Assembly: GCA_944390105.1 (NCBI GenBank)
Contig: CALXOV010000026.1
Span: 1-64,000 of the forward strand
DNA from: an uncultured Succinivibrionaceae bacterium
GTDB lineage: Bacteria; Pseudomonadota; Gammaproteobacteria; Enterobacterales; Succinivibrionaceae
Reading direction: 5' to 3'
DNA: 64,000 nucleotides
Every line of letters begins with the position of its first letter. Position 1 is the stretch's first letter. Both the position numbers and the translations under genes were made by a program. Below the pieces are notes generated by a model. The model worked only from the letters and a program-made list of their open reading frames with translations, did not search any database and was not told where the DNA came from. This document shows, piece after piece, positions 34,886 through 55,121 of this stretch.

Positions 34886-35041
34886 TCAGGCAGCCTTCTG
34901 CTTGGCGATTGAAGTCTTGACAAAATCCAGTAGCTCAGCAAAATTTATGCGTTCAGCAGCAAAATCCTGCAGCAGCTGTTCTTCAGCTGACGTTAAGTGC
35001 AGATTTTCCATCGCTAAAGTAGCTTTAATTTCATCAAGCAT
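34886..35041 (-). CDS. Small antitoxin of the Fic toxin (class I, VbhA/YhfG-like)
   Basis: 51 residues on the minus strand, from the ATG at 35041 to TGA at 34886-34888, directly before the Fic gene. It contains T-L-A-M-E-N, which matches the [S/T]xxxE[G/N] inhibitory motif of Fic antitoxins, and further on ERINFAELLDFVK, placed where VbhA has its GE-type second helix. The inhibitory Glu would compete for the gamma-phosphate position of ATP in the toxin. The pairing by motif, size and order is convincing, although overall similarity is low. Confidence 0.78.
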   Translation of the reverse strand: MLDEIKATLAMENLHLTSAEEQLLQDFAAERINFAELLDFVKTSIAKQKAA

Positions 35042-35064
35042 TGAAACCTCGTGAATAGATATCT

Positions 35065-35203
35065 ATGAACTACCTTTGCACTTACGTGTAAGGTTTGGCA
35101 AGATCGTAGCCTTGCTTCAGTAAGGCCCCTTCAGTGGGGTCTCAAGGGCATGTCCATAATGCCCCCATCAAGGTAGAGCTTTAGGCTCGTTCTTGAGTTT
35201 TTG
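35065..35203 (+). ncRNA. Structured-RNA candidate, copy 1
   Basis: 139 bases, about two-thirds identical by eye to 54887-55025 and almost gap-free. An outer stem closes it (CTACCTT 35070-35076 with AAGGTAG 35170-35176). Inside are GGCCCC/GGGGTC (35124-35129 with 35136-35141) and GGGCAT/ATGCCC (35159-35164) with the conserved loop GTCCA; GAGC/GCTC (35176-35188) follows. In the other copy several of these stems are kept with different bases. Strand is inferred from hairpin layout. I do not know the family; the HEARO/IscB guide-RNA class is one candidate. Confidence 0.5.
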
Positions 35204-35473
35204 CTTCTATTTTGCCAAGCACATATTTCTGTAATACCGCTGCTTTTTTTCCTCGCTTAAGCAAGGGGAATCTAGCAGCTTCAAGTTAAAATTATAAGCG
35301 AGATCACACTTTTCTGCAAGAAAAAACCGTGGTAGCAGTGGCACCGCATTAAGTCTTACTCGGGTTTTCGCTAAGCTATTGAGTGACCCTAAGCATGTGC
35401 TAATTTTGCCGGTGTAAAGTAATCCCCGATCAGAGGTTCTGCGGACAGTTGCGATTAATGCGAGGATCAGGAA
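35204..35473. other. Intergenic region before the YgiW-like gene
   Basis: Besides a near-palindrome (CCTCGCTTAAGCAAGG near 35251-35266), I see no gene or clear operator here. Confidence 0.4.
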
Positions 35474-36681: not shown

Positions 36682-36757
36682 GGGGGTATAGCCAAGCGGT
36701 AAGGCAGCGGGTTTTGATCCCGCCATTTCCCTGGTTCGAGTCCAGGTACCCCTGCCA
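36682..36757 (+). tRNA. tRNA-Gln (TTG anticodon)
   Basis: Cloverleaf with anticodon TTG in GGGTTTTGATCCCG, T arm GGTTCGAGTCC and encoded CCA at 36755-36757. The acceptor begins at 36682 with a G-T first pair. Confidence 0.93.
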
Positions 36758-36767
36758 TCTAAACTTT

Positions 36768-36843
36768 TGGGGCATAGCCAAGTGGTAAGGCAGCGGATTC
36801 TGATTCCGCCATTTCCAAGGTTCGATCCCTTGTGCCCCAGCCA
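36768..36843 (+). tRNA. tRNA-Gln (CTG anticodon)
   Basis: 76 bases, anticodon CTG in GGATTCTGATTCC, T arm GGTTCGATCCC, CCA encoded at 36841-36843. 10 bases after the preceding tRNA-Gln; same operon. Confidence 0.94.
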
Positions 36844-36856
36844 AACTTTGTTAAGT

Positions 36857-36933
36857 GGCTACGTAGCTCAGTTGGTTAGAGCGCGGCACTCATAATGCTG
36901 AGGTCACTGGTTCAATTCCAGTCGTAGCTACCA
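36857..36933 (+). tRNA. tRNA-Met (CAT anticodon, elongator type)
   Basis: 77 bases, anticodon CAT in GCACTCATAATGC, D arm AGCTCAGTTGGTTAGAGC, acceptor GGCTACG as in the elongator tRNA-Met of enterobacteria; CCA encoded at 36931-36933. Its 3' end is next to the integrase, so it is the likely integration site. Confidence 0.93.
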
Positions 36934-37057
36934 ACCTGCCTATTTTTGTTTTCCATTCTGATAATTTTTTGCATTTTAAGTTCTTAATCTATAAGTATTT
37001 CTTGCCTTTTCTTTTACTGCTTTTTAAATTTTCCCCGATTAAACAATACGTTATCTT

Positions 37058-37280
37058 TTACCCTGCCATTTACCCTTTCCTTACCCTTTCGGGGTAATTC
37101 AGATAGAATAAAAAGCGAAAAGTCGGGGTAAGTTTGAGCAAATCGGGGTAAGGGTAATTGCCTGCAAACCCTCATTCTTAAGCCATTTCTTGCTCAGTCC
37201 TTACCCTGACTTTGACCTTTGGTTGAAAATATCAACTCGGGGTAAGGAAATACTCGGGGGTAAGGGTAAGATGAGGGTAA
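37058..37280. repeat. Array of the hexamer GGGTAA / TTACCC in front of the integrase
   Basis: Thirteen copies in 223 bases. GGGTAA starts at 37092, 37126, 37146, 37152, 37240, 37258, 37264 and 37275 (the 37146/37152 and 37258/37264 pairs are contiguous). TTACCC starts at 37058, 37070, 37081 and 37201. A further degenerate GGGTAT is at 37281 directly before the ATG of the integrase. Several copies are embedded in TCGGGGTAA. They are candidate arm-type sites for the integrase or an excisionase. Confidence 0.7.
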
Positions 37281-37284
37281 GGGT

Positions 37285-38427
37285 ATGCTAAATGCTATAC
37301 AAATCAAATCGTTACGAGTAGAAAAAACAAAAGACTTTACAGACGAGAACGGGCTCATACTAAGGGTAACGCCTAGGGGAAACAAAACGTGGGCATGGCG
37401 CAAAACAATCAACGGACGGATTGTCAAAAAGGTTATTGGCAGTTATCCTGAGGTTGGATTGCAAGAAGCGCGTAGGCAGGCTGTTCAGCTATCTTCAGAA
37501 ACTACGGCAAAAGCAGTGTCTAAACCGTCGTTTAAGACTAGATTTAAAGATGTTGTGCCTAAATGGCTCACTGAAAAAAGAGGCAAACTCAAAGTCCCGT
37601 ATAAATTAGATGAGCGTTTTAAATGCCATATCCTGCCGGCTATCGGAGATTGCTATTTAGAAGATATTAACGACAAGCTTTTGCTGGAACGTTTTAAATC
37701 GGTAATTGACCAAGGTAAAATCGCTACTGCTCACCGGCTTATGAGCACTATCAATGAAGTCCTACGGTGGTGCGTTAGTGAAGAATTGCTGGATAGGGTA
37801 AAGACAGAATATGTAACAACGCGATTACCAAAGAAGCCACCAGTGAAGCACCGTGCGGCATTAGCGCCTGAGGATTTAGGGAGAGTTATTAAGCCGGGTG
37901 ATAATCCGCCATACCTGATGTGGTCAATCTATTCCATGCTGCGCCCTAAGGAAAACGCCGGATTGAAATTTGAGTGGGTGGACTGGGAAAAGAAGCTGCT
38001 TACAATCCCTGCTGAAGAAATGAAAATGAATAGGTCGCATGTTGTTCCATTAACCAGGCAGATGATTGCGCTACTCAAACAGCAGCAAGAATACAATGAG
38101 CGGTTAGGTTTTTCCGGTGTCTGGATATGGCCGTCCACTCAATCCGATTCCGGGCATCTAAACCCAACTACGCTGAATATCACATTGCGCCGTATGGGAT
38201 TAAAAGATATTTGCTCAGCTCATGGATTCCGTGCTACGGCCAGAACCTACCTTGCCCGTATTCATGTTCCTGAAGCCGTGGCTGAAGCGTGTCTTGCTCA
38301 TGCTAAACAGAACGCGACGGTTGAGGCGTACGATAGGGAGCAGTTCATTGAGGAGCGCCGCAAGGTCATGCAGCAGTGGTGTGATTATGTGGACACGTTT
38401 ATGATAGACAAGAACAATCAAAAGTGA
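37285..38427 (+). CDS. int: Tyrosine recombinase (phage/island integrase)
   Basis: 380 residues. N-terminal arm/DUF4102-type domain (TDENGLILRVTPRGNKTWAWR) and a C-terminal catalytic domain with the first Arg in MLRPKENAGLKFEW, the HxxR box in SAHGFRATARTYL, the third His in CLAHAKQNATVEAYDR and, in the same stretch, the nucleophilic Tyr. This is the P4-type integrase family, which inserts islands into the 3' ends of tRNA genes; the tRNA-Met gene is 350 bases upstream. The ATG is preceded directly by GAGGGTAAGGG, so the ribosome site overlaps the hexamer array and could be subject to autoregulation. No other phage genes accompany it except the HicBA remnant. Confidence 0.94.
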   Translation: MLNAIQIKSLRVEKTKDFTDENGLILRVTPRGNKTWAWRKTINGRIVKKVIGSYPEVGLQEARRQAVQLSSETTAKAVSKPSFKTRFKDVVPKWLTEKRGKLKVPYKLDERFKCHILPAIGDCYLEDINDKLLLERFKSVIDQGKIATAHRLMSTINEVLRWCVSEELLDRVKTEYVTTRLPKKPPVKHRAALAPEDLGRVIKPGDNPPYLMWSIYSMLRPKENAGLKFEWVDWEKKLLTIPAEEMKMNRSHVVPLTRQMIALLKQQQEYNERLGFSGVWIWPSTQSDSGHLNPTTLNITLRRMGLKDICSAHGFRATARTYLARIHVPEAVAEACLAHAKQNATVEAYDREQFIEERRKVMQQWCDYVDTFMIDKNNQK

Positions 38428-54716: not shown

Positions 54717-54840
54717 GAGTACGGACGGGCCATTTTAGCAGCTGAAGCGAACAGCCAAGGACTTTCTGCCTTTTAAGGCTGAATGGTTACAGCTGTTGGC
54801 AAGCGGAACCCCACCAAGCTTTAGCTTGTGGGAGCGTCAC
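54717..54840 (+). mobile_element. IS200/IS605-family relic, tnpB tail plus right end (copy B)
   Basis: In frame from 54717 to TAA at 54774-54776 the sequence reads EYGRAILAAEANSQGLSAF, a tail-like end of TnpB. A guide-RNA-like region and a hairpin (54810-54832, CCCAC and CAAGC with GCTTG and TGGG, one bulge) follow, and TCAC at 54837-54840 ends the element. It resembles the relic at 63261-63375 over its whole length. The rest of the transposon is missing. Confidence 0.6.
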
Positions 54841-54886
54841 GGTAGGTCGCAGTAAACGAAGCTACCGCTTAAGAATAGACGGCAGC

Positions 54887-55025
54887 ATGAACTACCTACG
54901 CACTTACGTGCGAGGTTTATGAGGTTGATGCCGCACTTTTAGTAAGCACCCATTTCAGGGCGCTTACGGGCATGTCCACCATACCCCCATCAGGTAGGAG
55001 CAAAAAGCTCGTTCCTGAATTCTTG
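54887..55025 (+). ncRNA. Structured-RNA candidate, copy 2
   Basis: 139 bases, same length as the copy at 35065-35203. Stems: CTACCT (54892-54897) with AGGTAG (54992-54997); TAAGC (54943-54947) with GCTTA (54962-54966) plus CCC with GGG; GGGCAT (54968-54973) with ATACCC (54981-54986); GAGC (54998-55001) with GCTC (55007-55010). It begins 46 bases after the end of an IS relic and ends 97 bases before the stop codon of the minus-strand gene 55122-56084. Confidence 0.5.
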
Positions 55026-55121
55026 GGGTTATTGTACATGCTAAAAAAGTGCTGTACCCGCCGCTTACATCCCCTAGATCACGCAAGGGTAACTCCGTGC
55101 CATCTGTTAAAGTCGTGGGCT

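Follow-up and report, generated by a model that had tools for sequence, protein, structure and literature searches.

The window analysed here, a stretch of 64,000 nucleotides from an uncultured Succinivibrionaceae bacterium, contains two copies of a short element, the first of which lies 24 bp upstream of a Fic-antitoxin-like ORF. A sequence-only reading had described the pair, on the plus strand, as a 139-bp block of constant length and nearly without gaps. Alignment confirmed the positions, the equal length, and the near absence of gaps, and the distance to the Fic antitoxin was also given correctly; strand and extent had to be revised. The features are listed under the identity for which we argue below with high confidence:

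35065 to 35285, minus strand: copy 1, whole non-autonomous IS200/IS605 element; left end at 35285, right end at 35065, with homology among the copies running from ATGAAC to TTAAA
35065 to 35203, minus strand: copy 1, TnpB reRNA/omegaRNA scaffold (the block first described), corresponding to the tnpB 3' end in autonomous relatives; 40 of 43 family pairs kept
35045 to 35064, minus strand: copy 1, predicted guide, the flank just 3' of GTTCAT; about 0 bits after GTTCAT in 79 copies, guide position by analogy with ISDra2 (PMC8612924)
35239 to 35279, minus strand: copy 1, left-end hairpin, read from the sequence; position and shape conserved in MITEs and autonomous elements
35286 to 35290, minus strand: copy 1, TTTAA target motif (predicted TAM) adjoining the left end; TTTAA at the left end of most copies, variable outside
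54887 to 55106, minus strand: copy 2, whole non-autonomous IS200/IS605 element, from BLASTN, covariance model, and alignment of the copies
54887 to 55025, minus strand: copy 2, TnpB reRNA/omegaRNA scaffold; 42 of 43 family pairs kept, fold z=-6.4 on the minus strand and -4.5 on the plus strand
54867 to 54886, minus strand: copy 2, predicted guide, the flank 3' of GTTCAT, assigned as for copy 1
55031 to 55036, minus strand: copy 2, TACAAT, a -10-like hexamer located in the MITE-specific spacer 11 nt before the reRNA begins; conserved, with a putative function
55060 to 55101, minus strand: copy 2, left-end hairpin, read from the sequence; position conserved among copies
55107 to 55111, minus strand: copy 2, TTTAA target motif (predicted TAM); most copies have this motif next to their left end

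When the copies are aligned with their flanks, homology passes the 139 bp and runs on to TTAAA, giving a mobile unit of about 221 bp. The biological strand is the minus strand, on which the order is target TTTAA, left-end hairpin, a spacer of about 36 nt, the 139-nt RNA block, GTTCAT, and unrelated flank. Among 79 copies, the right boundary is sharp, with information dropping to about 0 bits directly past GTTCAT on the minus strand, and most copies begin on the left with TTTAA followed by the hairpin, the sequence outside being variable. The left-end and right-end hairpins differ in sequence, that is, the element has subterminal hairpins and no inverted terminal repeats. In two congeneric genomes, G013 and G016, the copy 1 locus lacks the element upstream of the same antitoxin-like gene, and there is no target duplication. 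The motif at this empty site is TTTAG in both genomes, which may be expected of orthologous sites that are not the actual precursor. Given the sharp ends and the empty copy 1 sites in G013 and G016, the copies are therefore inserted mobile elements.

Copy 1 has cut off the Fic-antitoxin-like ORF (window positions 34886-35064) from its ancestral upstream sequence, which is uninterrupted in G013 and G016. Elsewhere in the window, three tandem tRNA genes are followed by a phage-type integrase ORF (36682-38427), an arrangement that probably marks the attachment site used by an integrated island. Just left of copy 2, at 54740-54841 on the plus strand, is an IS605-type right end of another kind (GGAACCCCACC-hairpin-GTGGGAGCGTCAC). 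It has close relatives at several loci of G018 and G017 and so probably represents another, unrelated TnpB-type right end or MITE family.

A BLASTN search of the 2.53-Mb genome with 35065-35203 recovered 54887-55025 at 73% identity (E=3.5e-11). Where two copies had been reported, the family occupies at least 17 places in this genome by BLASTN and 45 by covariance model, and a third copy is located on the contig of the window (81298-81437). The covariance model was trained on MITEs and one tnpB-linked copy; copies 1 and 2 were part of the training set and their model scores were not counted as evidence. By this model, G015 contains 53 copies, G001 49, and nine other genomes 4-19 each. Using a 230-bp query, we detected the family in 12 of 57 related Succinivibrionaceae genomes, representing three of 14 genera, and these 12 genomes together hold more than 200 copies. 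Plasmid and phage collections contained no DNA resembling the element. At least three MITE lineages (main, G001 type, and G002 type) have the guide scaffold with differing interiors and spacers (L068 1588-1727, L050, L061, L071, L051). One copy of the bacterium's own genome (L017 1173-1315) carries a near-perfect palindrome (GTGAACTAGGGGTTACCCCCTAGTTCAC) in place of the interior, which a further small mobile repeat may have left behind.

In G002, G014, and G006, a full-length tnpB gene lies between the same two ends. Element positions 1-138 and 176-230 flank tnpB on either side in G002, whereas the elements of G014 and G006 also contain a divergent Y1 transposase gene or fragment, and the proteins of the latter two show Pfam OrfB_IS605 and Cas12f1-like TNB domains. 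For the G006 TnpB, no relative with a solved structure was found by sequence at E<=0.001. The 139-nt block constitutes the 3' end of tnpB in G014 and G006, from the codons KELGDEW through VDKPVV to the stop, which falls within GGTAGTTCAT; the window copies have lost the tnpB reading frame and kept the RNA shape. With other stem bases, the same block is found at the tnpB 3' end of Aphodousia, Thiopseudomonas, and Sutterella, which the covariance model matches with E from 5e-13 to 8e-20 (5e-13 to 9e-24 once the tnpB 3' ends of G014 and G006 join them). We conclude that the element is very probably a non-autonomous (PATE/MITE-like) IS200/IS605 derivative with a whole TnpB guide RNA (reRNA/omegaRNA) scaffold. 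The ends of a known IS, which the sequence-only reading had named as the explanation that would speak against it, thus essentially account for the element, as it consists of two IS605-type ends plus a TnpB guide RNA. Its suggestion that the RNA may be new stands for the family, which is not in Rfam, and falls for the kind of RNA, which is already known. At one G002 locus (L072 998-1290), the guide RNA at the end of tnpB is a truncated coding version, and a second, non-coding copy of MITE type follows directly, as though the original right end had been exchanged for that of a MITE.

On the minus strand, the scaffold comprises five stems together with a pseudoknot, in which GUGGAC, in the loop of the first core stem, pairs with GUUCAU, the final six nucleotides before the predicted guide. 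In Sutterella the pseudoknot reads UUGAUG/CAUCAA and is fully paired, with three of its six pairs changed on both sides. The earlier proposal of a structured RNA was well founded: among 86 distinct sequences, 36 of 39 pairs have changed on both sides with 89% of cells paired, and 429 double changes were observed where shuffles gave 116 and slid controls no more than 97; the observed counts are inflated by kinship and come from an alignment fitted to the structure. Covariation thus lies far above the shuffled and slid controls, yet a tree-aware test of the proposed pairs only was significant for six of 45 when all sequences were used, for two among the MITEs, and for one among the own-genome copies, and the tree-aware test of all pairs returned no significant pair. 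Deep covariation is good between lineages and weak within the own genome. Between copies 1 and 2, the stems are largely kept as the bases change, as had been noted: with 40 and 42 of the 43 family pairs intact, three of the differing pairs are fully compensated (A-U/G-C, C-G/U-A, A-U/G-C) and another five carry a one-sided change that leaves pairing intact in both copies. The inner hairpin, first chosen to illustrate this, is the weakest example, given that copy 1 has two broken pairs on the family helix. Non-Watson-Crick cells in the stems number 355 G-U and 136 A-C on the minus strand of the whole alignment, partly since G-U is the ancestral state of two pairs in the pseudoknot. Taken by itself, copy 1 has the better fold on the plus strand (z of -4.1 vs. 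-2.8 on the minus strand); tnpB and the pseudoknot, rather than folding, are the main basis of the minus-strand assignment.

Within the own genome, substitutions amount to 0.15 in stems and 0.25 in loops, and 39 compensatory double changes are canonical compared to 14 expected from within-copy permutation, a difference inflated by shared ancestry. Derived single mismatches are about equally often G-U (70) and A-C (78), as expected of neutral drift after insertion. Most own-genome copies look like decaying relics now. Shuffle-based covariation was also considered as proof of present selection and rejected on the tree-aware test and the G-U vs. A-C count. The own genome is rich in decaying IS200/IS605 elements more generally, where the TnpB TNB domain is matched 21 times and Y1 transposase 14 times, many of the matches being broken or at contig ends. 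Cognate TnpB is represented in this genome by degenerate remnants only, the best being 35-37% identical with three stops in frame. Full-length or near full-length cognate TnpB occurs in G002, G006, G014, G017, and G018; a full-length version was not found in the own genome, G015, G005, and G007, all of them incomplete MAG assemblies, from which repeated elements readily drop out. Because G015, with its 53 copies, and G007, in which seven MITEs have exactly equal scores, are among these incomplete MAGs without a full-length cognate TnpB found, TnpB may be dispensable for spread.

The spacer between left-end hairpin and RNA is specific to the MITEs and absent from tnpB-coding versions. In other genomes, 17 of 20 distinct spacers contain a hexamer that matches TATAAT at five or more of six positions and is located 11 or 12 nt before the RNA begins, and the G001-type spacer has an extended TGnTATAAT. 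A -10-like hexamer at offset -11 is present in 10 of 31 own-genome copies, and in none of 14 tnpB-coding versions at offsets -11/-12. The conserved hexamer may hint at independent transcription of the RNA, but the copies that carry it share ancestry. A sigma-70 consensus scan around copy 1 detected no promoter; the case for one is therefore based on the hexamer that other copies conserve.

Taken together, a parent IS200/IS605 element with a TnpB guide RNA at its right end very probably lost tnpA and nearly all of tnpB. The remaining element would be moved as single-stranded DNA by a Y1 transposase (TnpA) acting in trans, as suggested by IS605 biology; Y1 transposase genes or fragments are present in the own genome. 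A cognate TnpB acting in trans could load the retained RNA, which the promoter-like spacer may express; the flank would serve as guide and TTTAA as TAM, and the loaded TnpB would cut excised sites, resulting in the element being copied back. That TnpB uses the retained RNA in this manner is a possibility that we consider rather improbable. Slightly more doubtful is the broader proposal that these MITEs are guide-RNA parasites, in which an orphan guide made from the MITE's own spacer promoter would be loaded by TnpB made elsewhere in the cell, by other elements or by ones arriving horizontally, so that the MITE would secure its retention and spread without encoding a protein.

About evenly balanced is the chance that the RNA is idle in the MITE, in which case the long right end would simply be inherited, and the action of TnpA on the DNA ends would be all that matters. 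Decay of the own-genome copies, with equal G-U and A-C mismatches, is consistent with an idle RNA, and so are high-copy MITEs in assemblies for which no full cognate TnpB was found. However, several MITE lineages (main, G001 type, and the G002 type of L051) keep the scaffold complete, even though terminal hairpins are normally all that IS605 ends require, and L051 is little beyond a left end and the RNA. The excess of canonical double changes in own-genome copies (39 vs. 14 expected, inflated by shared ancestry) and the conserved -10-like hexamer in the MITE-specific spacer just before the RNA start also argue against idleness.

Far less probable than either an idle RNA or use by TnpB is a cis-acting regulatory RNA for neighbouring genes, for example the Fic module, or a TldR-like guide RNA repressing a neighbour. 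Its appeal stems from copy 1, whose minus-strand RNA runs in the same direction as the antitoxin (it had been described as antisense) and whose predicted guide falls over the leader of the Fic-antitoxin-like ORF 24 bp downstream, but the roughly 45 copies sit at unrelated loci, and G013 and G016 conserve the Fic locus while lacking the element. A HEARO/IscB omegaRNA with a 5' guide on the plus strand and a lost IscB gene, the class first put forward for comparison, can practically be dismissed: dispersed ORF-less copies with conserved structure and a mirror topology, with a guide beyond one end and a motif at the opposite one, make the two superficially alike, but neither the element loci tested nor the autonomous elements tested matched HEARO (RF02033) or any other Rfam family at the gathering threshold or at E<=1, every autonomous relative found has tnpB with the RNA at its 3' end and the guide 3' of it, and a TnpB-type terminal pseudoknot is conserved by covariation. 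Gene linkage contradicts this candidate as well: the autonomous relatives carry tnpB, with the RNA downstream of it, and show no IscB or IsrB association.

The very probable reading as a non-autonomous IS200/IS605 derivative with a TnpB guide RNA scaffold relates the element to several known systems. The ISDra2 TnpB reRNA/omegaRNA likewise comprises the tnpB 3' end plus the right end, measures about 140-150 nt, and contains several stems; it forms a pseudoknot between the nucleotides just before the guide and a region inside stem 1, and takes a guide of ~16 nt from the flank (PMC10097598, PMC8612924). Shared features are a terminal pseudoknot that involves the first core stem's loop, a 3' guide from the flank, which is predicted here, and a TAM-like motif at the left end. 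Unlike in ISDra2, most copies studied here are not beside tnpB, whose C-terminus they no longer encode, and the target motif is TTTAA instead of TTGAT. The PATEs of Haloquadratum walsbyi, notably HqIRS71, are similarly short and ORF-less, with near-terminal palindromes, no inverted terminal repeats, no target duplication, and an IS605-type origin (PMC3119063). These PATEs, however, are archaeal and were described before guide RNAs were known, and guide-RNA structure was not considered (PMC3119063). RAGATH-18, the reRNA of IS607 TnpB, is another TnpB guide RNA recognisable as a conserved RNA motif, of which 64% adjoin IS607 tnpB and the rest do not (PMC11061315); it is a different motif from another transposon family, and our element has no Rfam match. 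HEARO/IscB omegaRNA (Rfam RF02033) is also a transposon-borne guide RNA with ORF-less copies, and differs in nuclease and orientation and by the lack of any sequence or structure match. A full-text search, which most subscription papers lay beyond, found no literature linking MITEs to retained TnpB guide RNAs, and a multi-copy non-autonomous element with a guide RNA as preserved interior was not found in the literature searched.

The more than 200 copies, together with the tnpB-linked versions from several genera, provide a deep natural alignment of a TnpB RNA family that is not in Rfam. Orphan transposon guide RNAs are not without precedent, because stand-alone IscB omegaRNAs have been reported. 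TnpB guide RNAs, in turn, are normally cut from the tnpB message and regarded as cis-acting. A high-copy miniature element with a complete scaffold, a conserved spacer resembling a promoter, and no protein gene makes the exploitation of TnpB in trans testable, and likewise the idea that PATE/MITE-type repeats may serve as reservoirs of orphan guide RNAs.
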